Shown here piece after piece: positions 1,968 to 28,156 of a stretch of DNA of 42,095 nt (the first letter of the stretch is position 1; the number at the start of each line of letters is the position of its first letter). Source of the DNA: a virus. A program made the position numbers and the translations under genes. The notes beneath the pieces are model-generated. The model made no database searches. It was not told the DNA's origin and was given only the letters and a program-made list of their open reading frames with translations. The stretch covers positions 1 to 42,095 of the IMG/VR virus record IMGVR_UViG_3300042289_001213; one strand, given 5' to 3'.

Positions 1968-3072
1968 CCCAGATTATCCCCCTTGATTTCCATAAATTTG
2001 TAGCTTCAGTTTCCATCTTTTTATATTTTACCACCTCCGATCTTAAGGTGTGAATTGTTGCTGATAGCGCAGCATCTGATTCTTTATATCTAGGTATTTT
2101 ATCTAAACCCGCAGCAGCACCGCCGCCAAACCTTAAACAAGCAACCCATGATGACGAATCTGAACTATAGCAGGGATATCTTTTCAGTACCCAATCAGTT
2201 GTTATACCGAGTAAATGAATCCTTGACATAACACCCGTTTCTTTATATCTTCCCATGATTATGTTGAAACAATAATCTAACCATTTTTGAAGTTTGATTT
2301 TATTCCTACTATGGGGAACTAAACCGCCTAAAGCTATATAATCATAGTTATCTAATGCTCTAATTAAATGCTTTTTATCACATCCAAAAGTAATAATAGG
2401 AATCGGTTTCATTCCTAACGATTCAAGTATTGATTGATTTTTCCAGCTATCATCTTGATTACCAATAACGTCCAGGTTCATAAAACTTAGAGATTTCATT
2501 TTATGCTCCCATCGCTTCTGAAAGTCTAAAGACCATGTAGCATAATCTTTAGGATTAATTATTTTCCCAGTTGTAAAAGCTGTAAATGCTCCTGAGTCAA
2601 TTATTACTCTAGGTCTTAAGTCAGATACTTTGTCCATTTTGGACAAAGTATCTTTAACTTCTTTCTGGTCTGCAAATGTTGTTAAATGGTTTTCATGTAA
2701 AGGCTTCACCACTTTGTCCATGTCAACGTTAACAGAATGACCCGCTAAATGTATATTCATATTCTTGTTTTTCTCAATGGTCTGATTCCAAGAATCAGAC
2801 CATTGAGATTCGTGGTTTTGGTAGGCATAACTAAACAGATGTTCTGGTTTGTTTTCATCAACTAAAACTTCTTTTATGTTAACGTCACCATTTAGTTTTG
2901 CTGTTGTATCAGCTAAATGAATCCTCAATAACTCCTCCCAATATTTTTGAGTGTCAATAAAACCCGCTTGTCCAACGAATGCGTAGGATTGCAAATAGCT
3001 TATATATCTCTCCTCAGTAAGAACTTTGCGTTGTCCGCGTTCGGATGAGTGATCAACTAAATACAGATACAT
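1960..3072 (-). CDS. dpdA: DpdA-like 7-deazaguanine DNA transglycosylase
   Basis: TGT-fold enzyme predicted to exchange guanine in DNA for a 7-deazaguanine base. Signatures of the phage DpdA family, numbered in the longest frame (start 3096): IDSGAF with catalytic-type D167, the FMNLDVIG strand with D209, the ALGGLV loop (255-260), and HLLGITT...YPCYSSDSSSW (294-317) with D313. I place the start at 3072 (Met9), where GGAAG lies about 7 bases upstream, giving 370 residues and a 20-base overlap with queC. The first ~110 residues hold two copies of a ~50-residue module (an xIHLA-type strand, then LFSYAYQ and a Trp-containing helix) before the barrel begins at MNIHLAGHS. The whole preQ0 pathway lies just upstream. 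The family call is secure; the exact base inserted is inferred. Confidence 0.85.
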   Translation of the reverse strand: MYLYLVDHSSERGQRKVLTEERYISYLQSYAFVGQAGFIDTQKYWEELLRIHLADTTAKLNGDVNIKEVLVDENKPEHLFSYAYQNHESQWSDSWNQTIEKNKNMNIHLAGHSVNVDMDKVVKPLHENHLTTFADQKEVKDTLSKMDKVSDLRPRVIIDSGAFTAFTTGKIINPKDYATWSLDFQKRWEHKMKSLSFMNLDVIGNQDDSWKNQSILESLGMKPIPIITFGCDKKHLIRALDNYDYIALGGLVPHSRNKIKLQKWLDYCFNIIMGRYKETGVMSRIHLLGITTDWVLKRYPCYSSDSSSWVACLRFGGGAAAGLDKIPRYKESDAALSATIHTLRSEVVKYKKMETEATNLWKSRGIIWDD

Positions 3073-3954: not shown

Positions 3955-4578
3955 TCACCCTTTAATTAAACTCAATACTTCTGCCCTAGCTGATGAATCG
4001 GTCATAAAAACACCTCTTAAACAGCTTGTAATAGTCTTAACCCCATGCTTTTTAACACCCCTACAACTCATGCAGTTGTGTTCAGCTTCTAATATGACTA
4101 CAACGCCCTTGCATTCTAAAACATTAAAGATCAAATCTCCCAATTGTTCGGTCAATCTTTCTTGAATTTGTGGTCGGGTTGCCAAAACTTCTAAAGCTCT
4201 AGGGAGTTTTGACAACCCGACAACTTTTTTATCAGGAATATAGCCAATATGGGCGACACCATAGAACGGCAATAGGTGATGCTCACATAATGAAGTAAAG
4301 GGAATGCCTTTTTCAATTACGACTCGATCATAGTCACAATCAAATACTTTACTCAGGGATTCCGATGGGTTAATATTTATCCCTTGAGACATCTCTACCC
4401 AGTATTTGACAACCCTTGAAGGTGTCTCTTTCATCCCTTCTGGCAATTCACCCCATAACAACACCATTGCTGATTCTACTTGAGAGATCGCTAAGTTCAG
4501 AGTAGAAGCATTGGCTTGTACAGGTTTCATCAACCCTAACTGCGACAAGTCCTGGGAGTTTTGTTTTGATTTTGTCAT
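3955..4578 (-). CDS. folE: GTP cyclohydrolase I (FolE)
   Basis: Makes dihydroneopterin triphosphate from GTP, the first step of 7-deazaguanine synthesis. Family motifs (numbered from 4602): ETPSRVVKYW (59-68), SLCEHHLLPFYG with zinc ligands C106 and H109, GLSKLPR (129-135), ATRPQIQERLTEQ, and AEHNCMSCRGV with the third ligand C177, spaced 71 from C106 as in E. coli FolE. Possible starts are 4602 (GTG), 4578 and 4530 (ATG). All overlap the 3' end of queD and none has a strong ribosome binding site; 4578 is a compromise. Its presence suggests the phage raises flux beyond host supply. Confidence 0.9.
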   Translation of the reverse strand: MTKSKQNSQDLSQLGLMKPVQANASTLNLAISQVESAMVLLWGELPEGMKETPSRVVKYWVEMSQGININPSESLSKVFDCDYDRVVIEKGIPFTSLCEHHLLPFYGVAHIGYIPDKKVVGLSKLPRALEVLATRPQIQERLTEQLGDLIFNVLECKGVVVILEAEHNCMSCRGVKKHGVKTITSCLRGVFMTDSSARAEVLSLIKG

Positions 4579-4858
4579 AAATCCATCTGGCAATTTCTTC
4601 ACTGGTAGGGTTTTCTAATCCTGTTGATTCATTCAGATAATAGTGATCCAAATAATCATCAACCAAGGGATTAATAATTCCTTTTATCTCCCCATAGTCT
4701 ATCACCATTCCGGTTTCACTTCCTGACTGCTTTAGCTCATTACCTGACACATAAACAAATCCCACCCAACTATGACCATGTAACCTTGAGCATTTCCCTT
4801 GATGGTTAGAAAGTTTGTGCGCGGCTTCAAAGGTAAACTTCTTAACTAATGTCCACAT
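4448..4858 (-). CDS. queD: 6-carboxytetrahydropterin synthase (QueD)
   Basis: Second enzyme of the pathway: converts dihydroneopterin triphosphate to 6-carboxy-5,6,7,8-tetrahydropterin. Zinc ligands H14, H27 and H29 (FEAAH, LHGHS), catalytic C23, the GMVIDYGEIK segment (50-59), the LDHYYLN region with D71-H72, NPTSEEIARW (83-92) and the late catalytic E111 are all in place. It shares one base with the queE stop (TAATG), and its 3' end overlaps folE by more than 80 bases, an unusually long overlap that depends on which folE start is used. Length (136) is slightly above the usual ~120, because of a C-terminal tail that lies in the overlap. Confidence 0.93.
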   Translation of the reverse strand: MWTLVKKFTFEAAHKLSNHQGKCSRLHGHSWVGFVYVSGNELKQSGSETGMVIDYGEIKGIINPLVDDYLDHYYLNESTGLENPTSEEIARWIYDKIKTKLPGLVAVRVDETCTSQCFYSELSDLSSRISNGVVMG

Positions 4859-5505
4859 TATTGAACCCCTATGATTTTGTGAGTTTGTAATGACAACCTA
4901 TATCCGTGTTCTTTAACTAATTCTAATGTTAATGGTAAAGTTCCCTTTTTGTAGTTCCACTCGGGCTGCAAATAGATAGGGATATTCAGATCCTCTAATT
5001 TGCTCCTATAAAAATCAACTTCGTCACCTTTTGAGATTACGATCTTAATTTCATTAGCCATACCCCATAACTCATTTAAAACGGGGTAACGATTGTTCAG
5101 ATGCTCCTTTGGGGAAAGGGTTATCCAGGCATCATTAACGGGTTGAAAGAAGCTCCCTGATGTCTCAATCGCAACAAATTTATCAGCACCATTGAGAGTC
5201 TCGACCAACTCAGGTAACTCTTTATGGATGAAAGGTTCGCCGCCGGAAATCACAATATGCTCGGATCTTAATTCCCCGATTAAATCCTCAATGGTTTTAA
5301 AAGTTTTTGTTGGTGGTTTACCTGTTTCTTTAGAGCTATATCCAGTGTCACAAAACCAGCATCCCACCGGACACCCGTACAACCGGATAAAATCGCACGG
5401 AGTCCCAGACCAAAAACCCTCACCTTGAATGCTTTGCTGGAAGGTTTCATGAATTGGAAAAGTTAGACACGGGGCTTTCACATCCTCAACTATTAATTTA
5501 CTCAT
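4858..5505 (-). CDS. queE: 7-carboxy-7-deazaguanine synthase (QueE), radical SAM
   Basis: Radical SAM ring-contraction enzyme making 7-carboxy-7-deazaguanine. The cluster motif CxxxCxxC is at C45, C49 and C52 (YGCPVGCWFCDT), preceded by the typical ETFQQSIQGEG (20-30) and followed by ISGGEPF for SAM binding. The C-terminal part, with SPKEHLNN, matches the QueE subgroup. First gene of the minus-strand operon. A 42-base gap separates it from the divergent gene at 5548 and must hold its promoter, though I see no convincing -35/-10 pair and no room for a preQ1 riboswitch. Confidence 0.93.
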   Translation of the reverse strand: MSKLIVEDVKAPCLTFPIHETFQQSIQGEGFWSGTPCDFIRLYGCPVGCWFCDTGYSSKETGKPPTKTFKTIEDLIGELRSEHIVISGGEPFIHKELPELVETLNGADKFVAIETSGSFFQPVNDAWITLSPKEHLNNRYPVLNELWGMANEIKIVISKGDEVDFYRSKLEDLNIPIYLQPEWNYKKGTLPLTLELVKEHGYRLSLQTHKIIGVQ

Positions 5506-5547
5506 AAATTAGTTTGCAATAAGACTTTTAACCATGTTAACTTTAAA

Positions 5548-6108
5548 GTGTTGTTATTGCGTCACCATGCGCTAAATAAAACTATTGCTTCAGTACCAAA
5601 CATTGAAAGGATCAGGGAAGCGGTCAGGGAGGTTATTGAGAACCCTTACCTGAATAACCGAGAGATTGGTAGGCGGCTTAACATCTCAGAAACAAATTTA
5701 AGGCGATGGAAAAAACTACCTATTTGGGAGCAAATCAGACACGAACTCCTAGCCGAACGGGCAGAAATAATTAAGGCAACAATAGAAAAGGACAGAATGG
5801 CTTATCAACAGGATTTAGAGGAAAAACAAAAAACATGGCAAGCGTTCAGGAAAGCCCTAGAGACTAACGGAGCATATTCCCTCACCCTTTCCAACAATGC
5901 CTATAAAGAAGCAGTCAGCAGTGAAAGAGACTCCCTAAAGGCTTGTTCTAAAGCCACCAAGTCAGGAGCACAAGTTCACTCTCGAAATGGGATGGAAGTT
6001 TTGAAAACTCTGGCAATGGTAGATGATCAACTCTATCAAAACAAGGTATTAATCGAATACTTTGAAAACCTTGAAAAAGAACAAACTCAAGAAATCTCAG
6101 AAGATTAA
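5548..6108 (+). CDS. Helix-turn-helix protein, possible small terminase subunit
   Basis: Encodes 186 residues from a GTG start; an in-frame ATG is not available nearby because stops flank it. Residues 18-52 read as a helix-turn-helix (NREIGRRLNISETNLRRWKK), followed by long charged helices (about 65-105) and a glutamate-rich C terminus. This architecture, an N-terminal DNA-binding domain plus helical oligomerisation region at the head of a morphogenesis cluster, fits a small terminase subunit, although the large subunit is 28 kb away. A transcriptional regulator is the alternative. It is transcribed divergently from the que operon. Confidence 0.45.
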   Translation: MLLLRHHALNKTIASVPNIERIREAVREVIENPYLNNREIGRRLNISETNLRRWKKLPIWEQIRHELLAERAEIIKATIEKDRMAYQQDLEEKQKTWQAFRKALETNGAYSLTLSNNAYKEAVSSERDSLKACSKATKSGAQVHSRNGMEVLKTLAMVDDQLYQNKVLIEYFENLEKEQTQEISED

Positions 6109-6110
6109 TT

Positions 6111-6485
6111 ATGCCTAATTTTGAAAGTGTTTTAGTTTTCCTGTTATTGTCTCTTGGTTTAAGATGGTTTTTGTTTAAGTACAAATTGCTTGATAGGATT
6201 AGGGAATCACTTAAACAGAAACACCAACTTTTTAGGGAGTTGTTTAATTGTCCATACTGCCAGACATTTGAGAGTTCCGTGCTAGTTTATTTTGTTCTGG
6301 GAATGCCATTTAGTCCCGTTACAGGGATTCTTGCGGGTTTATTTAATGCTTATGTTTCGGTGTCGATTGAGAATATAATTGAATCCCAGATAGAGGAGTT
6401 AGAGGGAGATTTTAAGACTCCTAAAACTTTGGAGATTCCCGACTACAAAACCCCAATTGAAATATTTAACTTAGGATCTAAATAA
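6111..6485 (+). CDS. Small membrane protein with CPYC motif
   Basis: Encodes 124 residues. One hydrophobic segment lies at the N terminus (about 6-22) and a second at about 52-78, separated by a basic loop carrying NCPYCQTFESS. The tail is cytoplasmic-looking and acidic. This pattern resembles small phage and bacterial membrane proteins of the DUF1360 type. The call is by general layout only. It starts 2 bases after the preceding gene and ends at the next start, so all three are co-translated. Role unknown. Confidence 0.5.
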   Translation: MPNFESVLVFLLLSLGLRWFLFKYKLLDRIRESLKQKHQLFRELFNCPYCQTFESSVLVYFVLGMPFSPVTGILAGLFNAYVSVSIENIIESQIEELEGDFKTPKTLEIPDYKTPIEIFNLGSK

Positions 6486-6706
6486 TGGAAAGAATTGAAC
6501 TATGCTCAAACAGATGTTGTCCAACCCTTGCTAAACTTGGGGATTTATGGATTATAAATGATGATTATGGTGGGGAGGTTAAATTGACACCTGATCAGCT
6601 TGATAATTTAGTAAAAGTTAAGTTGAAATATGAAAAAGATTTGGCATCTACAAGAATGATTGAAACTGAAAAGGCACGGGAAAATGGATTACTTATTCAA
6701 TCCTAA
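6485..6706 (+). CDS. Small hypothetical protein
   Basis: Encodes 73 residues. It begins with a cysteine-rich segment (ELCSNRCCPTLAKLGDLW) followed by an acidic and basic helix. It shares its first base with the last base of the upstream stop codon and overlaps the next gene by about 20 bases. The family is not recognised. Confidence 0.55.
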   Translation: MERIELCSNRCCPTLAKLGDLWIINDDYGGEVKLTPDQLDNLVKVKLKYEKDLASTRMIETEKARENGLLIQS

Positions 6707-7361
6707 AACTCAACGCTACCATTACAAACAAGGAGCGGGGCGGGGTCAATTCGTACCCGCCACTGCCATTAAGTTCATGATGCAGCGCAACATTGAGGCG
6801 ACACAGGGGGATATTAAGACCATCGGGGAATTATTGGTCAATGGTAAAATATCCCTCTCAACTTGGGAAGAAATGACCGCGATCGCACTCAAAAACTTGC
6901 ATATTCAATCATACCTACTTGGTCGCGGTGGTAAAGGTTCTATGAATCAACGGGACTATGGATTAATTGGCAATCGACTCAAAAAGGAATACAAATATTT
7001 GAGGGAATTTGCTAAGGAAATCCAAACTACCGGAGTTAGCAAAGCTGATTTCTTTAGGCGATTAGAGATGTATAGCAACGCCGGATCAGGTCAACACGAA
7101 AAAGCCCGAACTGAAGGACACAAGAAAGCGGGTTATTCTTGGGAGTGTAGGGTCAGAACCAAAAAGGAATCTTGCCAACCTTGCATAACTTATGAAGGCA
7201 TGGGGTGGCAACCTATAGACACACTTCCCAACCCTACGGAGCGGTGCGAATGCGGATCAAATTGTGGTTGCACCAAGAAATTCGCCAAAGAAAAACCGCG
7301 AGATTTTGTCAAGCGGTTTGGGACTTTTGATTGTGCCAACTTTAGTCAAAAGTTAGGGTAA
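6684..7361 (+). CDS. Minor head protein-like (phage head morphogenesis type)
   Basis: The frame is open from a TTG at 6660. I prefer the ATG at 6684 (225 residues), preceded by a GGCACGGG stretch. The C-terminal half has features common in SPP1 gp7/Mu F-type minor head proteins: an H-x-KARTEGHKKAG helix followed by a cysteine-rich segment (ESCQPCITYEG, then RCECGSNCGC) and PNPTERC. The N-terminal part is basic and rich in Gly and Gln. Its place just before the protease-like and capsid genes fits. Recognition is by motif style only. Confidence 0.5.
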   Translation: MDYLFNPKTQRYHYKQGAGRGQFVPATAIKFMMQRNIEATQGDIKTIGELLVNGKISLSTWEEMTAIALKNLHIQSYLLGRGGKGSMNQRDYGLIGNRLKKEYKYLREFAKEIQTTGVSKADFFRRLEMYSNAGSGQHEKARTEGHKKAGYSWECRVRTKKESCQPCITYEGMGWQPIDTLPNPTERCECGSNCGCTKKFAKEKPRDFVKRFGTFDCANFSQKLG

Positions 7362-7542
7362 CGGCGGCGGTTGTGCCACCAAGTACAGCCTCGCCCGATG
7401 TGGGTACAATGGCAATGGTGGCAACTTCGGGAGTGCCCGCAAAGGTTACAGTTATCACCCCGACTTCAGCTAATCGACCATTTGACCCGCGAGAAGAAAT
7501 GATAATTTCTTGGGGGTTATTTTTATCAACATGAACAGCCAT
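7342..7542 (-). CDS. Small beta-rich hypothetical protein
   Basis: Encodes 66 residues rich in Val, Ala, Thr and Gly, with alternating hydrophobics (VGVITVTFAG, ATIAIVPTSG, AAVTLTFD) that suggest a small beta-sandwich. It has a strong ribosome binding site (ATAGGAG, about 6 bases before the ATG). It is the only minus-strand gene within this head cluster apart from the repressor at 8306. Its 3' end overlaps the convergent minor head gene by 20 bases. It could be a structural or decoration protein; no family is recognised. Confidence 0.55.
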   Translation of the reverse strand: MAVHVDKNNPQEIIISSRGSNGRLAEVGVITVTFAGTPEVATIAIVPTSGEAVLGGTTAAVTLTFD

Positions 7543-7613
7543 GACTTTCTCCTATGTAGTTTGTTTTAAACTAGAATTGATTTAACCTTATTGTATTAGA
7601 AATCCCTACAAAT

Positions 7614-8291
7614 ATGTTTGCAACATCAAATATTCAAGCAAATCCCAGAATTGGCTTTCCCCATCCCACACCTGAAGAAATGGAGAAGATTAAGCAATTC
7701 TCTAATGCTGAACCCCATCAGATTGTTGTTGTAGAAATTATGGCTGCTGACAATTTGATGAACAGGAGTCGGGGTAAGTGGTCTTTGGATTCCCTGAGAA
7801 GTCTAGCGATGTTAGCACCTGGAATCACTCTAACCCTAGATCACGACTGGGAAAATATCAGCAAAGTTCAGGGACGGGTATTTTCTGCTGAGTTTGAATC
7901 AGAGGAAGAAACCCCGTTTGAGGAACTGACAAAAGCGGGGAATTTTGATTTAAACCGATGGATTGTTGCCGATGAAGGTTATGCAAAATTAGAGTTAAAA
8001 GCGTTCGTTTCTGTTGATTCTCCTATCTTAGAATCCCTTTGGATGGGAACTATTTGTTATGTGTCTTTAGGACATTTCACAATAGAGGATCTATGGTGTC
8101 CGTTGTGCGACTGCTCATTTTATGACGCAGCTTGTCCCCATCTTATCCCATCCCTAGTAGAACCAGATACCGAAATAACAGCCCCATTTTATATCAGGAA
8201 AGGCTCTAAAGATTTGGGAGAAGTTAGTCTAGTTCTAATCCCAAATCTACCAGGTGCTAAGGTTGAGCTACCAGAAAATTATGATCATTGA
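7614..8291 (+). CDS. Prohead protease-like protein
   Basis: Encodes 225 residues. The segment GKWSLDSLRSLAMLAPG then LTLDHDW (H77) and VQGRVF, followed by a YVSLGHF strand (S151), follows the His-Ser layout of phage prohead proteases. After it come C162, C165, C167, C174 and H176 (CPLCDC...CPH), a metal-binding insertion seen in several phage proteins at this position. It directly precedes the capsid gene apart from the repressor, which supports a role in capsid maturation. The N-terminal ~35 residues are variable. The catalytic assignment is inferred from pattern, not alignment. Confidence 0.6.
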   Translation: MFATSNIQANPRIGFPHPTPEEMEKIKQFSNAEPHQIVVVEIMAADNLMNRSRGKWSLDSLRSLAMLAPGITLTLDHDWENISKVQGRVFSAEFESEEETPFEELTKAGNFDLNRWIVADEGYAKLELKAFVSVDSPILESLWMGTICYVSLGHFTIEDLWCPLCDCSFYDAACPHLIPSLVEPDTEITAPFYIRKGSKDLGEVSLVLIPNLPGAKVELPENYDH

Positions 8292-8305
8292 TAGAACCAA
8301 TCAAT

Positions 8306-8557
8306 TTATTGATAGAACCAATTAATCGGATGATTGACAACCTTGGCTATCCTCTCAAGCCGATCACAAGATGGGACTGACAGGTCATGCTCATATCTAT
8401 GAATACTCAATCGGGCAATATCTGCCCTTTTCCCTAGCGTTTCCTGGGATAAGTTGGCTCGGTTTCTGGCAATTAATATCAATTCTCCTAAGCTAAATTC
8501 GTTTATATTATCCTCGGAGCCACTAGGAATATTGTGGCTTTTGGGCTTCGTTTGCAT
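8306..8557 (-). CDS. XRE-family (Cro/CI-type) repressor
   Basis: Encodes 83 residues. Residues 22-80 are a complete HTH_3 domain: LGELILIARNRANLSQETLGKRADIARLSIHRYE..., then SCDRLERIAKVVNHPINWF. There is no dimerisation or peptidase domain, so it is Cro-sized. The start has GGGGGTAGGT before the ATG. Upstream, two TATCACTTC boxes exactly 20 bases apart lie between it and the major capsid gene; they are the likely operators, so this protein probably controls itself and possibly late head genes. It is convergent with the protease-like gene. Confidence 0.85.
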   Translation of the reverse strand: MQTKPKSHNIPSGSEDNINEFSLGELILIARNRANLSQETLGKRADIARLSIHRYEHDLSVPSCDRLERIAKVVNHPINWFYQ

Positions 8558-8644
8558 ACCTACCCCCTCAATCTATATCACTTCTGAATAAATTGTATCA
8601 CTTCGCTTAAACGCTTGGGATAAACTCAGAATTGCATACCTACC
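8552..8644. promoter_or_regulatory. Repressor operator/promoter region with two repeat pairs
   Basis: Between the XRE gene and the capsid gene, TATCACTTC occurs at 8576-8584 and 8596-8604 (20 bases apart, two helical turns). On the minus strand each forms GAAGTGATA(C/T)A, overlapping a -10-like box. A second pair, TTGCATACCTACC, is at 8552-8564 and 8632-8644; copy one includes the repressor start codon and its ribosome binding site. The arrangement suggests cooperative repressor binding or duplicated start regions. Confidence 0.5.
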
Positions 8645-8653
8645 AATCTTAAA

Positions 8654-10531
8654 ATGAAGCGTGCCTTAAATATATTAAAGGATACGTTTTCTGATAGTGA
8701 GTCGGGAGTGGAAACGGATGCAATCAAACGTTTAAATGCTGCAAAGCAAAAACGCAAGACCGATCAAGCTCCCAAGCCAGAAGACCTTCCAATTGAAAAT
8801 CCAACTATGGAAAAACCGAGTTTAATTGTCGGAAAAGATAATGCTGAAAGTCCAGTAGATGTTCCCGTTATTCAACCCCAAAAAGATCCTGTGATTGAAG
8901 TTGGGGAAGACGGAAAAACTGTTGAACTTGATATGGTGGCACTAAGATCCTTGATTCAGCAGAAAGAAAAAGCGCAAGCTGACAAGGATTCTGTGATTAT
9001 TCAGCAAGCTCTTGATGAACTTAAAAAAGCCAAAGAAGAAGCTGAACAAGTTAAAGATCAGTTGATTGAAGCTGAAAAAAGACATCAAGAAAGTATTAAA
9101 GAGGAGCGCAAAAAAACAGCAGATTGGACTCGGATTTTTGCTGATACAGGCTTTGATTTAAACGTTGTAGATCAAAACGTTCAACAAATTCAGTCAGATT
9201 ATAAACCCTCACCTTATCTGCAAGTAGAAGGTCGGACTCGCTCAATCTCAGGGCTTGATGCCTATAGAGAAGTTAAGCGTATCCTGGAAAGTAAAGCTGA
9301 TTGTCCTCTGTCTACTGCTGTTAATCCCTTGTCGGGTGAGATTGTAGAGTTTAAAGATACAGGAAATTTGGATAGATTTGTTCGTCAAAATAGAGATTCT
9401 ATTATTGATGGATTGGATCAACAAATGAAGCGTGGCGGTTTGTTGCAAGGGCGAAATTCAGATAATACCAGCCCTACAACTATTTCACCGTTTTTCCTGG
9501 AAACTTTAAGCGCGCTGACTCGCGTCAACCACTCTCCTGCTTTTATCTTCTGGCAATTTGCAAATCGCAATATTTCCTTGGGATATAACGTCGGAGACAC
9601 GATTCAAATCCCCCGAGTTAGATATTCTGCTTCGGCAACTTCTACTAATGCTTGGAAGTTAGATCCTTTAGTAGATATCACTGCCACGAATCAAGCTATT
9701 GAGGCGGGTCACGTCAAAGCGATTTTAGAGGAGTATGGTCTAGGCAAGGATGCTACCATGCCACCCCTCACCGTTGCTGAGTTCTATATGCGGACTTCCT
9801 TGATGGATTTGATGCCATTCATTGAGAGAAATCTTGGCTATAACTACAATCAGTTTGAAGACTTACTGATTCGTGAGCTATGGGGTGGTACTACTCGGAT
9901 TGTTTATAACGATAACGGTGTTGTGACAACGACCGTAGGCAACGTGAACGTGGGTGACAGTGGATTACTTAATCTCACTTTCTTGACCAACCTCTATGCT
10001 TACTGCTATGGGAGTCTCCAAATTCCCCCGCTTGATGATGGGCATTATATTCTAGTGACTAACCCATTCTCGGCTGCGGCACTGACCAATTCCCTACAAG
10101 AGAATAGTCGGTACACCTCCCGCGTGGCGATGAATGATTTAACGTCGCTTCTGAAACAGACCACGATGAATGATTTGGGAAGAACAGACGGATATCAGTT
10201 CAGCGTTGCCAACTTCCACATCTTTGTGTCAAACGCTTTTGGTGCAGGAATTGTAGGTACTGAGGGTGTGCAATCCGAGACTACCGGAGCAGGTGCTAAA
10301 ACCACTCGGTCATCCTTTGTCGCAGGGCGTGACACCATCGGGCGTTCAATCGCCATGCCGTTCACCATTAAACGAGCCAAAGAGGACGGTTTTGGACGGA
10401 TTAACCGATTCATCTGGAACTCGTATGAATGCGCGGCTGCTTTGGATGTAGATCCGGCTTCTAATCCCCCAATGTCTAACGATCAACAATTAAGAGTTGT
10501 TGAAGTTCGGACTCTTGACGTTGCTATTTAG
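8654..10531 (+). CDS. Major capsid protein, HK97-type with N-terminal scaffold domain
   Basis: Encodes 625 residues. The N-terminal third is acidic and includes a long coiled coil (about 95-157), like the delta/scaffolding domains cleaved from HK97-type capsid precursors. The capsid core follows from about residue 265 (ISPFFLETLSALTRV, then FIFWQFANRNISLGYNVGDTIQIPRVR-type strand) to the C terminus, which ends in an RVVEVRTLD strand. It lies downstream of the protease-like gene and upstream of connector genes. There is no clear Shine-Dalgarno sequence before the ATG, odd for so abundant a protein. The scaffold-plus-core layout is visible; the cleavage site is not predicted. Confidence 0.8.
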   Translation: MKRALNILKDTFSDSESGVETDAIKRLNAAKQKRKTDQAPKPEDLPIENPTMEKPSLIVGKDNAESPVDVPVIQPQKDPVIEVGEDGKTVELDMVALRSLIQQKEKAQADKDSVIIQQALDELKKAKEEAEQVKDQLIEAEKRHQESIKEERKKTADWTRIFADTGFDLNVVDQNVQQIQSDYKPSPYLQVEGRTRSISGLDAYREVKRILESKADCPLSTAVNPLSGEIVEFKDTGNLDRFVRQNRDSIIDGLDQQMKRGGLLQGRNSDNTSPTTISPFFLETLSALTRVNHSPAFIFWQFANRNISLGYNVGDTIQIPRVRYSASATSTNAWKLDPLVDITATNQAIEAGHVKAILEEYGLGKDATMPPLTVAEFYMRTSLMDLMPFIERNLGYNYNQFEDLLIRELWGGTTRIVYNDNGVVTTTVGNVNVGDSGLLNLTFLTNLYAYCYGSLQIPPLDDGHYILVTNPFSAAALTNSLQENSRYTSRVAMNDLTSLLKQTTMNDLGRTDGYQFSVANFHIFVSNAFGAGIVGTEGVQSETTGAGAKTTRSSFVAGRDTIGRSIAMPFTIKRAKEDGFGRINRFIWNSYECAAALDVDPASNPPMSNDQQLRVVEVRTLDVAI

Positions 10532-10543
10532 GAGCATAAATAA

Positions 10544-10783
10544 ATGGCAAGTTCAGAGAAAGAACCCATCAAGGAAACAATTTTAGATCCGGTACCAACT
10601 CAACCCAAAGCGGAGCCAAAACCGGAGACTAAAAAACAAGAAAAAGTCCAGGGCATTAAGCCTATTTATCCAAAATACGCTGGCTATTCCTGTCCCGTTT
10701 GTGGGTCAAAAAGACTGACGGATGATTCGGGAAAGTATATTTGTCCTGTCACCCCAAAACCATCTGATTGTCCGGTCAAATAG
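10544..10783 (+). CDS. Small zinc-ribbon protein
   Basis: Encodes 79 residues. It has a Lys/Pro/Glu-rich disordered N terminus (residues 1-45) and then CPVCGSKRL...KYICPV...DCPVK, a small zinc ribbon (CxxC ... C ... C). The ribosome binding site AGGAG is 10 bases upstream. It lies directly between capsid and connector genes and is probably a minor head component or assembly factor. Family not recognised. Confidence 0.6.
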   Translation: MASSEKEPIKETILDPVPTQPKAEPKPETKKQEKVQGIKPIYPKYAGYSCPVCGSKRLTDDSGKYICPVTPKPSDCPVK

Positions 10784-10792
10784 GGGGATTAA

Positions 10793-11200
10793 ATGCCCTT
10801 TACTTTAGAGGAAAAATGGGAAGTTTTGAGAATTTTACGAGTTGACATTTCCGAAGAAACGCCTGTAATGACTCTACTAGAAACCTTAGAAACTCGCTCT
10901 GAGGCTTGGGTTCAACAAACCCAAAAGCTAATTCTTAGAATCAAAGATTTTGAGGATAAATCAGACGAAGCGGCTACAGGATTAACCCGAGTAGATGTCA
11001 TTGAATGGAAAGAACATCGCAGGTGTGACATCGGTTATCACTTGGAAAAACTCAGACGAGAATTAGCCAAAACAATCGGCTACAAATCAATCTCTCAATT
11101 CAATCCCTTCTCAATAGGAGAAGATAATAATGGCTACAGGATCTTTTACCAATCTCGCTGCTCAGAAATATCTCGATCACATTTTTGGAGGCAACTCTAA
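10793..11200 (+). CDS. Head-tail connector-like protein
   Basis: Encodes 135 residues, mostly helical: an N-terminal VDISEETPVMTLLETLETRS segment, then helices with acidic and basic faces (WKEHRRCDIGYHLEKLRREL). Position after the capsid fits a small connector or adaptor. The ribosome binding site GGGGGA is present. Its last 71 bases overlap the next gene, whose own ribosome binding site lies inside this frame, so the last ~24 residues are dictated by the overlap and may not be functional. Confidence 0.5.
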   Translation: MPFTLEEKWEVLRILRVDISEETPVMTLLETLETRSEAWVQQTQKLILRIKDFEDKSDEAATGLTRVDVIEWKEHRRCDIGYHLEKLRRELAKTIGYKSISQFNPFSIGEDNNGYRIFYQSRCSEISRSHFWRQL

Positions 11201-18922: not shown

Positions 18923-21900
18923 CTAATACATATTTTTAGCCCGTGTCCAGTCAGCCAAAACTTGACGACTATCACCTGTTGGGTCACTGGATACAACGGT
19001 TAAATTCTCCACATTTGGGGCGGTCGGTTTGTTGATCAGTCCCTCGATTGCAGTAAGGAGCGAGTCCAGTTTGGTATTGATTTGAGAAGTTAGGTCTACC
19101 ATCGGAGTGATTGGGGATAAATCAAATTTGATAGAAGACATATCTACCTGAATTATCTGATCGACGTTTATAGCCCCTTGAGATGCCAACTCACCTCCTC
19201 TTAGCGCCGTGTCCTGCAACGCCTTCCGGTTTGCTTCTTGCAATGCAAACCTTTCATTATTCTGGTCAGATGCCAAAGCCTGTTGATCAATCCCTGCAAT
19301 CTGATTGGATACCGTCAACTTATCAACAGCAATCCCTAACTGTTGTTGACTTAACTGAGTCCCCTGTTTGGTCAATTCGTAAGCCTGTTGTGCGTTTTGA
19401 ATCTCCCTTGGGTCGCCATTGACATTAGCTTTTTCCAGTGCAATTTTAGCCTGTAATTCGGCTTGTCGTGCCTTGTTCAAGCTAATACTCGCCTCCATAA
19501 TGGCATTCTCGGCTGTGAGTTTGTTGATCACTTTTTGCAATTGCATTTGAGCATTTTGAATCTTTTGCTGTTGCTCCAATTGCCGAGTTTTCATCTCTAA
19601 AAGTTTCTTTTCCTCTAAAGCTGATTGGTTGAATTGTTTAGTCCGCAAATCACGAATATCAGACTCGGATAAGAATGTGCTGCCAGACCCCGCGCCCGCC
19701 ATTTTCCGAATTAGATCCATCAGGTAACGAGTTCCTTTGTATTCAGCAAAATTAATGGAATTGTCCGCAGCCCGTTTCTGCAAGTCTGGCAACCGCCCCA
19801 ATAAATCCTCGGCACTACGAGATCGATCAAGCGCGGCTTGTCTTCTCTGTTCTTCACCTTTGAATAACGACTGCTGTAATTTGACCTGAGCCTCCATCAC
19901 AGTTTTCTCTCGGTCTAAACTCTCAACTATTTGCTTGCGTTTTTCTAACCCGTAGGAATATCCCATTTCCTGTTGCTGGAAAATGAGATCAATTCGAGAT
20001 GATTCATCATCAAGAGCTAAAATTTTGAGGTCTTTTAATTGCTTAACCTTCTCAATTTGTTTATTAATTAAATCAAGTTTTAACTGTTCAGCTTTTATGG
20101 TTAGATCCGCCGTTCTTTCCTCTGCTTCTCGCTCGGTTAGGGCGTTCTGTTGACGGAGTTTGGCAACTTGTTTAATCTGGGTTAATGTTTCCTTGAGTTG
20201 CTTTTTAGCTTGATCTCCTTGTATTTGAGTGAGTGCGATCGCTGATTGCTGCTCGGCTCTTTGACTTCCAATTAAATCAATTTGCCCTAACTGTTTTTGT
20301 CTAACAATTTGCTCTTGACGAATAGCACTTAATTGGAGAATGTTTTCTTGTTTCTTGGTTGCCCGTTCAAAATCTTCAACCATCCGGCTGTACATTCTAT
20401 CTCTGTCTTCGATAGTCCGTTGGTTGATTCGTTGGTGTTGCTGTAGCTCATAGTCCTTTAATTGGAGTGTAGTTGAGGTTATATCCTGTTCAATCTGCCG
20501 AGAGCGGTCTTCATATTCCCGTTGGGTTATTTCACGCTTAGCATAATGAGATTGCAGAATAGATAAACGACGCTGTAATTCCTGCTCATAGGCTGTACTG
20601 GTCTGGAATTGAACAGCAAGTGTTTCATCCTCTGTTTGGCGAGTGGTTTGAGTCTGGGCATCTTCACCGGATCTAGTCCGAGTATCTAATACGACTTCCC
20701 TTTGAATCTGGCTATTTTTCTGATTAATTTGAGCTAGGGATTCCCTGAGCTTGAGTTGATGCTCAATTTTTTGATTTTCTCTGTCTAATAAATCAAGGCG
20801 AAGCTGTTGAACGGCTTGTCTTAACTGTAACTCCTGTTCGGCTACCTGTTGAACGGCCTGTACAGATTGAAGTTCCAAATCACGGCGGCGGGTTGCGAAT
20901 TCCTCAGCAGATATCAACCCTTTGCGGTAATATCCTTGCAAGGTTTCTAAAGATATTTTGGCAATTTGTTCATTCTGTTTTGCAGTATCTAAAGATATTT
21001 TTCCTTTTGCTACGTCAACTTCGTAGGGCTTAATTTGTCCCGATAATTGACCCTTGGCAACTCCTAGTAAGCTCCGAGATTCCCCAACCTGAACTTTTCC
21101 CTGAGCTTCGGCTTTGTAGTAATCAAATCGACTCAATAACGTTTGAGACTTTTCTTTTTCTAATGCCAGAGTAGCTTCGGCTTCCTCTCGCTGCAAACCA
21201 ATCAAACTTGACTCTTGTTCCCGTAGCAAAATCAAGGCCTCTAACGCCTTGCGTCGCTGTGTATCAGCTTCATCAACACCCTCTAACTCAATCTTTAACC
21301 TCTCTAAACTGTCACCGCCATAATTCGCCGCGTATTGCGACATTAATGGGTCTTGTAATAGCTCTTTAAGTCCTTTGATTGCATTTTTGGAGATGTTTAT
21401 TTTATTGTTCACTAATTCCAAAGCATTCTCAGATCGTTTTAAACTTGCAGAACTTGCGGCAAAAACATCCTTGGTAAAACCTTTAAATTCTGTTTCAGCG
21501 ATCGCTCGAAGATTCTTATCTGCCAATTCAGAGGCGACACGATTGAACATTTCCATCTCAACTCTAATATTAGCCAATACCTTCATTAGCTCGGATAAAG
21601 TTGTTTGCGCTCCGGTTTGCCTCTCGATATTTTGAAGTTCAATCTTGTAGGCTTTCAATACTTCAATAGTAGCGAGGGCTTCTGCTCTTAACTTGCTATC
21701 GTTAGTTTCCTTGGCTAATTTCTGATAGTTTTCTAATTCTATATTTACATTAATTAAACCATCAGATAACGGTTGCCCTAGCGTATCTCTTAATTTCCGA
21801 ATTTGCACTATTTGATCATTTATTTGTGATTGCGATTTTGGGTCTTTGGTTAAGCTAGATTTTTGCCGTAGTATTTCAACTTGAGCATTTAATTCTTTAA

Positions 21901-24900
21901 TTCTGGTAATATTGTCTTTGCTTTTAGCTGGATCAATATAATCAAAGAGCTCTTTCAAAGCTCCCGACGCTCTGCTTTGTTGGAGTTGTTTAACCTGTCT
22001 AGCGTCAACAACAGTCTGCTTTAGACTGTCTCTAAGTTCTTTGTCTTGAGCATTTTCTGTTGCAGCAAACGGATTAATAGCATTAAGAGCGTTTAACGGG
22101 TTCGCAAATCTATTTATTTTTTGTAAAGCATTTTCGCTTTTTCTCTCGTCAGCAATTCGCTTTTTAGTTATCGAGTATTCTGTTTCTGGCTTCCCTCCAG
22201 GAGCGGGTGTAGCTTTTCCTTTATTAAGTTCTTTAACTAAATCCTTAACCTCTTGTCTTGATTTTTGGAGGTTTTTGATTAGGGATTCTGACCAAGTTTG
22301 TACCGTTGTTTTGGAGAAAAAGGTATCCCAGACATCAGCTAATATTTTAAATGCCTCGATTGTTAACCAGACAACTGCTGTGACTGTAGCGAATTTAGCT
22401 ACAGAAGGGACTATGAAGTTGTTGATAGCGTATCTTAAACCCCTTACAGCTTTTGTGACGGTAAAAGATACTGCGTGGATATCCCATAACCCTTTTACTA
22501 ATCTAACAACAGAAGGTAAAAACCTGCCCAATGCCACAGCAGTAGCAGTCTGAATAATTTGTGAGAATGTTCCTGCGTATTGAGTAACTCCTTTTATGAC
22601 CCCGCTCAATACATTCATCCCTGTGATCAGGATTCCTTGAAACTCTTTCCCAGCAGCAACCTGTATTTCTGTGATAGCGGTTTTTAATCGGGTTAAGGAA
22701 GATTGGGCGGTATTGGAAGCTCCTGCTACACCATCTGCTGTTTCTGAAGATAATTGATTGGCAAATTTAGGAAGAAAATCCGTAGCAGCAAGTTGTCCAG
22801 TCGCAATAAGTTTAAATAGTTCTTGCTCCGTAAGGTTCATGGATCTCGCTGCAATTTGGAAGGCACCCGGAATTCTTTCGGCCAACTGCCCTCTGAGTTC
22901 CTCCATGCTCACAGTGTTGTGATGCTCGTATCCCTGAGCATCTAAATAGAGATGGTCTCCACTAATAAAAAACCCGAAAAACTCCCCAACGTTTAACCTT
23001 TCAATCGTGAATTCTTCTATATTCCAATGTTCGTTAATTAATTTATAGTTTGCTTTTTCTTTAGGACTTAGCTCAATGTAATCAAATAAATTAACAGTGT
23101 TTTTAACGCCGTTCTCGTCAAAGAGTCTCATCTTGTGACTGCGGTTAACGACAAATGAGTCTCCATGTTTGGGCTTGATATTCCATAATTCTTCTGTGCC
23201 ATGTGCCAACATTAAAACTTTTCGAGGGGTTTTATCGACTCCCATCAAATAATCCCCCACTTTAATGTTTTCTACTTTTTTAGTAGAGCCATCAGCCATT
23301 CTAATTAGCGAACCTTTCCCGTGACAACCTTTCCCTGCTATTTGAGAAATTGCAAGGATAGAGCCTTCTAATTCTTCTCCCGTTAATCCAAATACCGTCC
23401 CAGCTTGCATTAGTCCAGACATTAATTGATTTGTTATCTTCCCTTCCATCGGAGTGTTTCGGGTGCTGGCTGCTAATTTTTTATAACTTTGTAGGGCTGG
23501 CTCTATAGCTGAAGATGTGCGTTCAATTTCACTTCTTAAGAATGCGATTTGTTTTGCACCTGCTTTTGTTCCTCCTGACAAAAAGTTAATGGTGTTTTCT
23601 AATACTTGAAAGCGTTTTGTAACTTCAAAAGTCCCTGAAGCAATATTTTGAAATTGGTTTTTAAAAAAATCTAATGTATTAAAACTAACAAAAGCCCTCC
23701 TAAACTTGACAAGTAAAGACAAGAATGGCTGATCTTTTTTATTACTAATATCCGAAAGACTTTTGATTTCGTCTATAAATCTTTTCAAAGGAGAAGATGA
23801 TCTGGTTTCTTGACGATCTAATCCAGATTCAACGTTTTCTAGTTTTCCAACTGACTCCAACATTCTTGCGACAGCTTCTTGTGCTTTTTCTGCATCAGGG
23901 GGGAGATTTGCAGCAATTTCCACTAACGCTTCTGAGATAGAATCCAAACCCTCTGTAGCTCCATCAAGTCCTAATATCCCCTCAAACTCAAAAGGATCAG
24001 ACCCTATGGCATTTATTTTTTCAATGTTTTCCTCTATAGAATTTAAAGCAATTAAAACAGATGGATCTATTGATCCTCCGTCTATTAGACTCTCTATGTT
24101 GCTTCTAATTTTTATGAGAAGATCTTTAAAATCTTCACCTTCTTCTATCGCGTCCTTGAAAAAATCAGCCTCTTTTTTGTTAATATCATTCTCTATGTCT
24201 ACTAAATCAAAAGGGGGTGTTTTTGATGTACTAGGATCTGGTGTAGTGGGTGTTAGCACTGCGGGTGTTTTTTGTCCTAAAAGGTTTTTAACCTTTACCC
24301 CAAAACCTTTAATAGCTTTCCCTATGTCAAAATATAAAACTTTTGCAATCTCAGGGGCATTTCTTTCTAGGAAGGGTTGGACAGCTTTACTTACTGCAAT
24401 AGCCCCAGCCCCTGCGGCAAGAGTTAAAACAACGGGAACAGCTATAGGACTGGCCGCAACAGATCCAGCAGCCAAGCCACCAGTTGATGCCATTGCACCC
24501 CCTTGGGTTCCAAACACGCCAACCCCCAATGCTCCAATCCCCAACAAAGCCTGTTGTCCTGACTGAACTTGCATTTTTTCGGGAATCTGTAGTTGAGGCA
24601 TTGGAATTTTTAAGTCGGGTAGCTCTATGTTTTCTGCCTTCCCTAGCTTGGCTTCTTCTTTTGTGAGGTTTTCAGCAATAGAGTCCGCTCTTTCTCCATA
24701 AGCCTTCAATGCTGATATCATCCCCTGAATATTTTGCCCTATTGATTGAGGAATGCTATACTCTTCTTTTATGTTTTCAAGTTGAGTTACAGCATCAAAA
24801 ATGGCATCCAAAACATCATAGGATTTGACTTTTATATCAGTCAAAGCATTCGACAATTCTTTTTCACCTGAAATATCTTTTAACCCTTTTATTAAATTAT

Positions 24901-27900
24901 TTATTTCTTTTTGCTTTTGACTAATCCCTTCTTGAGCTTTTTTATATATTTCCTTAAGTAATTTAAAACCACTTTTTTCTAGTAGCCGTTCTTTTGTTAG
25001 ATCAGATTCTTTCTTTTTCCCAACAGAAGTTAACCCGCTCGATCCAGATGTATAATAAGCTTCCTGAATTGCGGTTTTTTTCGCCGTTTTTGCTAACTGA
25101 AAAGAAATTTCTTCCGAAGTTTTACCAGTGGGTGATTCCCCGATATTTTTAAGTGTTTCTATTAACGAGTCTTTTTTAAAAAAAGTCTTTAGATCGTGAG
25201 CAATACTTTGTATCTCTTCTATATCTAATTCATAATCTTCCCCGTTATCTTTTTCTGAGAAAGGAATATCTACTAGCTCTATAATAGGTTCTATCACAGG
25301 TTCTATAATAGGTTCTATAATAGGTTCTATCACAGGTTCTATCACAGGTTCTATAATAGGCTTTACAATAGGTTCTATAATAGGTTCACTTTGATTGACT
25401 ACAGGAGGTTCTACAGACCCCTTTATAGGAGTGTCATCAACGCCCTGTTTTTTCGGTTTTTTTGATTCTATTTCCTGTTTTTTTAAAATGAGTGCATTTA
25501 ATTTTTTTTGTGAGTCAACAGCAACACGCCCCTGTTCTTTTTCTACTTTTATTACTTCTTGTAAATATTTTATCCTTGCATCTATAATCGCTTCCTCTTG
25601 TTTGTTTTGTGATTCTGTAATTTGTATTGCATCAGACAAGAGGTTTAACGCTGCGTCACTTGCCTCTCTTGGATTTGCGCGAACTACACCACCTTCTTCT
25701 AATGGGGCGGACTGTATTTTCAAAACAGTAGATAAAGTACCTTGAGATTTATCTATTCTTTTTAAAAACGTACTAACAATTGCCTTGATCTTTGGGTCTT
25801 CTATTGTTTTAATAAGTTCTGACAAAGCATTTGATAATTCGGTCAGATCACTTGGGATTGAGGCTAAGTCATTAGATGCAATTTGGGCAAATTTAGACAA
25901 CTTTCCTAACTGCTCTATATCTGTCGATTCAAGATCTGTGTTTTCTAATACATTTTTTATTTTAGTCAACCTATTCGATGATGATGTAAAGTTTTCCTGA
26001 AATTGTTTCACAACACCAATTAAAGCAATAAATTCGTCTGAAAGCTGGCTCAATTCTTCATCTGAAAGAGCTTCAATTTTCGTTAAAAAATCTTGACTGG
26101 ATAAGTTTATTAGTTCGGCTACAGATTTTACTGGATTGCTCTGAAAATCAGGTATTCTCCCCCCTCGAAAGCCAGTCTGATTTTCTATTTGTATTTGCTG
26201 CCTTTTCTTTGTCATCTGATCTAAAACTTTTCGAGTCAATAACTCAGCACGAATATAAGCGTCCATCTCCTGTCTTTTGACTTTCTCTAATTCTTCAATA
26301 GACGGAGATTTGCCCTTCTCTCTTATTTCACTATTTTGATAACTCCTAACAGAAATTGAAACTCCTCTATTTATTTTTCGTAATTGTTCTTCACTAAGAT
26401 TATCTTTTGCGTCTTCAATCGTCATCAATTCTTTTGTACTAGAAGAAGAAGCCCCTTCTTTCCCAAAATTATATTGAAAAGCATGGATAAGCTCATGGAC
26501 AACAATATTCAATTTTTCTTCTGATAAACTCAGAAGTCCTTCTAGGTCTATGGAATCAAAAGCTTTTATGACTTCCTCACTAAGTCGAATAAAGTTATCA
26601 TCAGGGGAATATGCCCCGCTTCTCATGTCATTTTCTGACATCGGAATAATCTTTGGAGTTTCCGATTTTAATGGGGTTTTTAACCCTGTCTGTTGAGCTA
26701 TTATTTGAATCAGAGAAAATAAATTTCTTTGGGCTTTCGTTTCAAAAACTTGAGAGTTTCCGGTTTTTTCTTTCTCTGTTTTATTTCCTGAATTCCGAAG
26801 TTTTACAACGTTTGCGTAGGCGTTTTGCATTGTATCACTAGCTTGTAATAGCAATAACGCCTGATCTTTAAATCTAGCTTTTAGTTGTTCTAAATGCCTT
26901 ACCTGCTCTCTTATGGCGTTCTCTACAGACTCACTTGTTTCTTTGTGTCTTTTTTTCAAAAGGCTTGCCCTTCTCGCCAATTTATCAAGAGAGTCAGACA
27001 AGGATTTGTTCTCAGCAAGACTTTTAGACAACCCTGAAGTATCGTCCGGTTTTAAATTTCCCCTTTCTTCCAGGTTTTTTAATAGCTTCTCCTCAATGCC
27101 TTTGGATTTTTCCTCTATTTCTTTCAACTCTTCTTCTATTTTATCCCCTTTAAAAGCATTGAAAAGGGACTTCGCTTTCTCGGATATCTGTTCCTCGTAT
27201 TTTTGGATTTCTTTTTCTGCCTCCTGTAATATAGCAACCTCACTATTGATTTTTGTTTGCCAAGGAGAATTAGGCGACGTTTCTCTTTGTGACTGATTAA
27301 ATGCCCTTGTTTTTATGGAATCTTTTTTTTCCTGTCTTGACGATCTTGCTGCGAACTGCCTCTCCCTAACTTGCTCCTCTCCAAAAAAACCCTTTCCCGC
27401 ATCTCTAATGATTTCATAAAGGTTTTTTTCTATTATTAGTAAAAAATTCTCTCCGATCCCTCTTCCTATAGAAGATCCTACTAATTCAAAATCTCCAATT
27501 ATCCCTGAAAATACTTCGGTTAAAGCGTCAGAAATTCCTACACCTATATTTTTTGTCAACGGGAGCAATAAACCACCCAATCCAAATCCTATCGCTGTTT
27601 TAAGAAATCCCCCAGGGGAATTTTTTCTAATAGCTTTTCCTAGTATCACCTCAAGTTTTGTTAGCGTACTCTCTCCTATTTCTGTTAGCAAAACTGAAGA
27701 CGGGTAACTAGAATTAGTTCCACTACCGGAAGGGGAACGATAATTAGATCCCTTAACACTTCCCCCTGTAATATTTGTATTCCCAATGTATTTGTATAAC
27801 TCTCTTACTGTTTTAATCTCTTCTTTCAGCATCTTAATTGCTTGAATAGAGTCGTCTATCCCACGCTTATTAACCTTAACAGCCAAAGGATTGCTATTAA

Positions 27901-28156
27901 AATATTGCTGAACTTCTTTGTGATGCTTTCGCTTCAGTTCAATGTGCTGATTGAGTCGGGTTAATTCCTTGTCGTCAACCTTGACTTTTAAAGGGGGAAG
28001 TCCTATTTTTGTAATTTGATTTTTAGCGTCAAAATTCAGGACAGCATTGACGGGAATTATTAACCCTTTATTTTTGGCAATTAAATTATTAATATCGCGA
28101 TTAAACTTGTCAAGACTTAACGACGCTTCAAATTCAACCGATCCAATAACTGTCAT
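18923..28156 (-). CDS. Tape measure protein, giant, with intein and HExxH motif
   Basis: Encodes 3077 residues, about 2940 after removal of the intein. Residues 1-1490 are an N-terminal extension: coiled coils, a hydrophobic patch (about 185-215), HELIH at 554-558 with [15 protein letters not shown] before it and [10 protein letters not shown] after it, as in zincins, an (I/V)EP(I/V) tetrapeptide repeat at about 923-960, and a Gly/Ala hydrophobic stretch at about 1199-1260. The conserved tape-measure N-terminal domain spans about 1490-1810 ([43 protein letters not shown]) and is split by the intein. Hydrophobic helices follow (about 1830-1950), then a very long Gln/Glu/Arg coiled coil to the end. 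By the usual ~0.15 nm per residue the tail would be near 440 nm, though the globular insertions would lower this. TAGGAG precedes the ATG. Confidence 0.9.
   Translation of the reverse strand: [3077 protein letters not shown]
22916..23326 (-). other. Mini-intein, 137 residues, in the tape measure protein
   Basis: Tape-measure residues 1611-1747. It begins with Cys ([14 protein letters not shown], block A, then IKVGDYLMG), has a block B-like [12 protein letters not shown] with His64, a block F-like [15 protein letters not shown], and ends YEHHN before a Thr extein residue (block G His-Asn plus Thr+1). The flanking extein ISQIAGKG | TVSMEELRG rejoins into the normal tape-measure motif. There is no room for a homing endonuclease, so it is a minimal splicing domain. 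Confidence 0.9.
25276..25388 (-). repeat. 12-base tandem repeat coding (I/V)EP(I/V)
   Basis: About nine units resembling AGGTTCTATAAT on the plus strand code for repeated IEPI, IEPV and one VKPI tetrapeptide in the tape measure protein. Acidic, proline-kinked repeats of this kind form an extended linker. It sits between the HExxH half and the hydrophobic half of the extension. The units vary mainly at one position (ATA versus ATC, then ACA or ATA), typical of slippage-prone DNA. Confidence 0.85.

Follow-up and report, generated by a model that had tools for sequence, protein, structure and literature searches.

A probable class-1 mini-intein without an endonuclease in the tape-measure protein of a freshwater phage, shared at one conserved site by distant phages

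Inteins carried by phages have been described in terminase, helicase, ribonucleotide reductase, dCTP deaminase and a minor head protein, and the intein in the dCTP deaminase of phage CL131 was shown to excise itself. Genes for the tape-measure protein (TMP) are a known target of another kind of intervening element in phages, the introns with homing endonucleases (PMC10448857). Outside the TMP, the nearest sequence relatives of the intein described here reside in the P-loop of SF2 helicases, including those of Vibrio phage 393E50-1, Listonella phage phiHSIC and Salmonella phage 5sent1. The helicase and TMP inteins share an initial Cys1 and a terminal His-Asn, as well as, in several of the helicase inteins, the Asn and His of block B. 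They differ in that the helicase inteins interrupt the ATPase at PTG|SGKT or GAGK|T and most of them comprise 333-358 residues including a LAGLIDADG endonuclease, whereas the TMP inteins have 131-142 residues and form a separate branch in an unrooted tree.

This article describes the TMP intein of a freshwater phage and its occurrence in other phages. The window, that is, the whole stretch of viral DNA analyzed (42,095 nucleotides), contains the following features:

18923..28156, minus strand: gene for the TMP precursor, 3077 residues (TMP_3, TIGR02675, phrog_2335)
23327..23344, minus strand: QIAGKG, N-extein end of the conserved TMP motif (among 23 empty TMPs the Gln is invariant and the Lys-Gly nearly so)
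22916..23326, minus strand: mini-intein of 137 residues, a HINT domain without an endonuclease domain (Pfam and PDB matches, profile, model)
23324..23326, minus strand: Cys1 codon in block A, the N-terminal splice nucleophile (invariant in all five TMP inteins)
23135..23164, minus strand: block B, GDSFVVNRSH (Asn61 and His64 invariant in the five TMP inteins)
22946..22987, minus strand: block F, GEFFGFFISGDHLY (conserved)
22916..22933, minus strand: block G, GYEHHN, ending in His136-Asn137 (HHN invariant in the five TMP inteins)
22913..22915, minus strand: Thr+1, the C-extein nucleophile (Thr in four TMP lineages, Ser in contig L117)
22883..22915, minus strand: TVSMEELRGQL, C-extein start of the conserved TMP motif (MEELR.QL invariant in the 23 empty TMPs)

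The host reading frame was assigned as a TMP by Pfam TMP_3, NCBIfam TIGR02675 and phrog_2335 (E 8.5e-49), and the protein would be 2940 residues long if the intein splices out. The insert is a stop-free run of 137 codons, CHGKGSLIRMADG...GDHLYLDAQGYEHHN, in frame within this gene and flanked by ...AISQIAGKG on the N-terminal side and TVSMEELRGQLAERIPGA on the C-terminal side. Comparison with 23 empty TMPs places it in the most conserved motif of the TMP domain. In the precursor the TMP_3 match is split into two stretches, and joining the flanks restores a single one (profile positions 5-185 of 192, E 2.6e-27). Empty TMPs, such as that of Microcystis phage yong1, align over the junction, which in a modelled intein-free relative falls on the short turn that links two helices, within the motif that bears MEELR.QL.

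Three other observations were made along this gene. A 12-bp tandem repeat of 9.2 copies at 25278-25387 encodes an IIEPVIEP run in the TMP; the N-terminal part of the protein (...NIVVHELIHAFQYNFG...) contains a HELIH motif as in zinc metallopeptidases; and about 670 bp at 21619-22286 is a segment swapped inside the TMP gene, which cannot be aligned to four contigs that are 99% identical to the window on both sides of it.

The identity of the insert is supported by several lines of evidence. Above the Pfam cut-offs only Hint families were detected, with Hom_end_hint matching at E 1.2e-14, and among PDB sequences it matched PI-SceI (1.9e-8) and the Prp8 inteins. A profile built from 22 other inteins, with that of the window left out, matched residues 1-137 at E 4.8e-45, the next best of the 336 reading frames of the window reaching only E 1.8, and this rules out a chance similarity to inteins. 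The AlphaFold model (pLDDT 94.8) has the HINT fold; the closest solved structures are the Cryptococcus Prp8 mini-inteins (6mwy, 6mx6), and all 137 residues were superposed with a Z score of 23.5 (to 6mwy) and an rmsd of 1.2 Å. An assembly artefact was ruled out as well, since the insert is also present in five further contigs and in an independent cultured lineage.

The residues of a class-1 intein, namely Cys or Ser at position 1, the block-B His, the terminal His-Asn and Cys, Ser or Thr at +1, are all present, as Cys1, His64, His136-Asn137 and Thr+1; the block-F Asp is Asp124. Cys1, the block-B Asn and His, His-Asn and Thr or Ser at +1 are retained even in lineages only 44-51% identical to the intein of the window. 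No endonuclease motif was seen in the 137 residues, and the stretch from His64 to block F, at about 50 residues, is too short to house an endonuclease. Sequence, profile, structure model and comparison with empty sites agree with the preliminary description, which had reported a 137-residue mini-intein in the middle of the conserved TMP domain; its coordinates, Cys1, His-Asn and Thr+1 were likewise correct. By its anatomy the insert is a class-1 mini-intein, and it is probably able to splice.

The same insert was found in other phages. A tblastn search of phage records placed the cultured Ruegeria phages DSS3-P1, V7, V11 and V18 on top, with 43.9% identity over the full length and an intein at the identical TMP site. 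Scans of viral contigs added inteins at this site in contigs L027, L115 and L117, while in five further contigs the intein is identical in protein sequence to that of the window. Five lineages (the window, the Ruegeria phages and the three contigs) therefore conform to a common pattern, Q..[G/S]KG|C…HHN|[T/S], and all their inteins are mini-inteins of 131-142 residues. The GC content of the intein ranges from 0.37 to 0.64 in step with that of its carrier phage, an indication that the intein has resided there for a long time. Inteins were also suspected in the TMPs of Phobos, Suzuki, Polaribacter P12002L and ctUtU524, where the sites proved empty. A scan of bacterial genomes returned eight weak matches; none lay in a TMP, and the frames concerned were all unrelated ones encoding a HINT-like domain. 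The plasmid search gave 11 records with 27-41% identity, annotated as terminase, helicase-related, Hint domain or not at all.

The preliminary description had proposed looking for the site with and without the intein in related phages, and both states were encountered, most clearly in Ruegeria phage V16. This phage was isolated from the same harbour and on the same host as the other Ruegeria phages, and its TMP gene was reported to be about 500 bp shorter (PMC6256702). Its TMP is 96.8% identical to that of a carrier and lacks exactly the 417 bp of the intein; the protein sequence of the motif is the same and reads QIAGKGTLQMEELRQQLGDRLPGA. The V16 genome holds no copy of the intein elsewhere. 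Together with the TMP_3 domain restored by joining the flanks, this absence identifies the intein as an in-frame insertion in a protein that is complete without it. Given that V16, a cultured plaque-assay isolate, manages without the intein on the same host as its carriers, the element is dispensable within that group and has not become fixed there. The preliminary description had proposed that an intein devoid of an endonuclease must either be fixed or regulate tail assembly. This is not supported, and the fixation is contradicted by this nearly identical (~97%) phage and by the patchy occurrence of the allele among phages. As a matter of annotation, GenBank assigns the name 'tail tape measure protein' in V16 (record L166) to 9342-11054, yet the real TMP is the preceding gene, 4501-9345, labelled 'tail protein'.

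The history of the element was explored with two trees. In the unrooted tree of 24 inteins (five from TMPs and 19 others, mostly from P-loop helicases) the TMP inteins form one branch apart from the rest (support 93/98, not starred), some rows being long-branched. Most of the helicase inteins in this tree are full length with LAGLIDADG motifs, and shortened or mini versions were found in L139, L157, L159 and L137. In the tree of 84 TMP flanks, carriers are scattered among intein-free TMPs and most of their relatives lack the intein. Counting the changes between presence and absence that starred branches force gave at least five, gain and loss being indistinguishable; in four cases a starred branch unites a carrier with an empty TMP (the window with L028, L027 with L100, the Ruegeria phages with L102 and L117 with L022).

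The reading preferred here, to which a probability of roughly 85% is assigned, is that the insert is a canonical class-1 mini-intein, removed from the TMP by splicing, and that a single allele without endonuclease owes its distribution to recombination between phages and to loss; the rival routes of spread weighed below may overlap with it. The phage would synthesize the 3077-residue precursor, in which the HINT domain folds and cuts itself out in cis, joining ...QIAGKG to TVSMEELRGQ... (junction ...IAGKGTLQMEEL...) to yield the normal TMP of 2940 residues. By analogy with class-1 inteins in general, an N-S acyl shift at Cys1, aided by the block-B Asn and His, would be followed by transfer to Thr+1, cyclization of Asn137 with the aid of His136 and a final O-N shift. 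The family to which the element would belong otherwise occupies the P-loop motifs of helicases in phages, and its members mostly carry LAGLIDADG endonucleases; one lineage without endonuclease may have reached the TMP site and then moved and been lost among distant phages. The simplest route would be recombination in mixed infections, with the insert tolerated, nearly neutral and probably devoid of a function for the phage. Several points weigh against this reading: the flanks have diverged so far between distant carriers that recombination would not come easily, the reading does not account for spread without an endonuclease, and the branch of TMP inteins lacks a star and includes long-branched rows in its tree.

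Repeated homing, meaning several invasions of the TMP site by full-length LAGLIDADG inteins that subsequently shed their endonucleases, is possible although not probable. In its favour, full-length inteins predominate among the helicase relatives, and shortened and mini forms already occur among them as well. On the other hand, scans with the N-junction pattern retrieved only mini versions at the TMP site and no full-length, endonuclease-bearing intein, a codon-specific scan that ignored the intein sequence found no endonuclease-bearing intein there either (all 43 matches read as chance), and the five TMP inteins group as one clade.

It seems unlikely that an intein lineage lacking an endonuclease is still spreading horizontally to this one TMP site, either through mobilization in trans or kept because splicing times tail assembly. 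Taken alone, mobilization in trans, by which an endonuclease encoded elsewhere (free-standing or in the helicase intein of a co-infecting phage) would cut empty TMP sites into which the mini-intein is copied, appears quite improbable. There is a precedent in the collaborative homing of introns (PMC10448857), the patchy spread at one site without a nuclease of its own would be accounted for, and HNH genes occur in some carrier contigs; these HNH matches, however, lie about 26-29 kb away from the intein. Moreover, profiles of LAGLIDADG_3, HNH_3, HNH and GIY-YIG gave no match in the two Ruegeria carrier genomes examined (DSS3-P1 and V18) or in the window, a partial record, so that within these four families neither an own nor a linked endonuclease, as expected of a homing intein, was found.

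Conditional splicing as a post-translational switch, for example redox sensing through Cys1, would delay the TMP and time tail assembly. Conditional splicing has been described for other inteins, the splice residues and the full reading frame are retained in five lineages, and the supply of TMP would be a plausible control point. Nevertheless, the sequence showed no sign of a regulatory feature, and V16 (~97% identical, plaque-isolated, same host) and most relatives lack the intein, making this option very doubtful. Some HINT domains are known to cleave without splicing, but a domain that only cleaves or has stopped splicing, retained as a fixed part of the TMP, deserves hardly any credence given that the class-1 residues are complete, the insertion is exact, TMP_3 is restored on joining and relatives manage without it.

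Inteins of this kind were already known; what is new is the host protein and the patchy spread without an endonuclease. No earlier report of a TMP intein was found in the literature searched, whose coverage left out most subscription journals. The preliminary description had called the host unusual, which holds insofar as published phage inteins lie in other proteins; the window is not singular, as the Ruegeria phages and three contigs share the site. A tail scaffold protein thus joins the known homes of inteins, and one insertion site common to distant phages is defined. The pair DSS3-P1/V16 offers cultured close relatives for asking whether an intein without endonuclease spreads, costs or helps the phage. 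In addition, TMP length, the common basis of estimates of tail length, is inflated by the intein (here by 137 residues).

Among the known systems, the Prp8 mini-inteins resemble the TMP intein in being compact and, in the solved chain, free of an endonuclease domain, and differ in sequence (28% identity) and in their host, a eukaryotic spliceosome protein. The inteins in terminase and other enzymes of phages Mic1 and phiCbK and in the CL131 dCTP deaminase also occupy essential or metabolic phage genes; unlike the TMP intein, they reside in enzymes and not in a tail scaffold, and those of phiCbK and CL131 have 341-351 residues. The introns of phage ICP1 and Vibrio phage 496E54-1 interrupt the same gene as the intein, and in 496E54-1 also the same conserved motif. 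The insertion in 496E54-1 (L012, 2294-3363), which matches RF00028 at E 1.4e-6, below the gathering score, and carries a NUMOD4/HNH endonuclease, is probably a group I intron. An intron-like interruption was also observed in Pseudoalteromonas phage PH357 (L010, ~2680-3000), where a gap of about 320 nt separates the end of the TMP frame, after ALIQMMSKGKIMA, from its continuation at LEELKNQLGDSLPGA; Rfam gave no match there. The TMP motif seems to attract inteins and introns alike, the introns of ICP1 and 496E54-1 being removed as RNA and the intein as protein.
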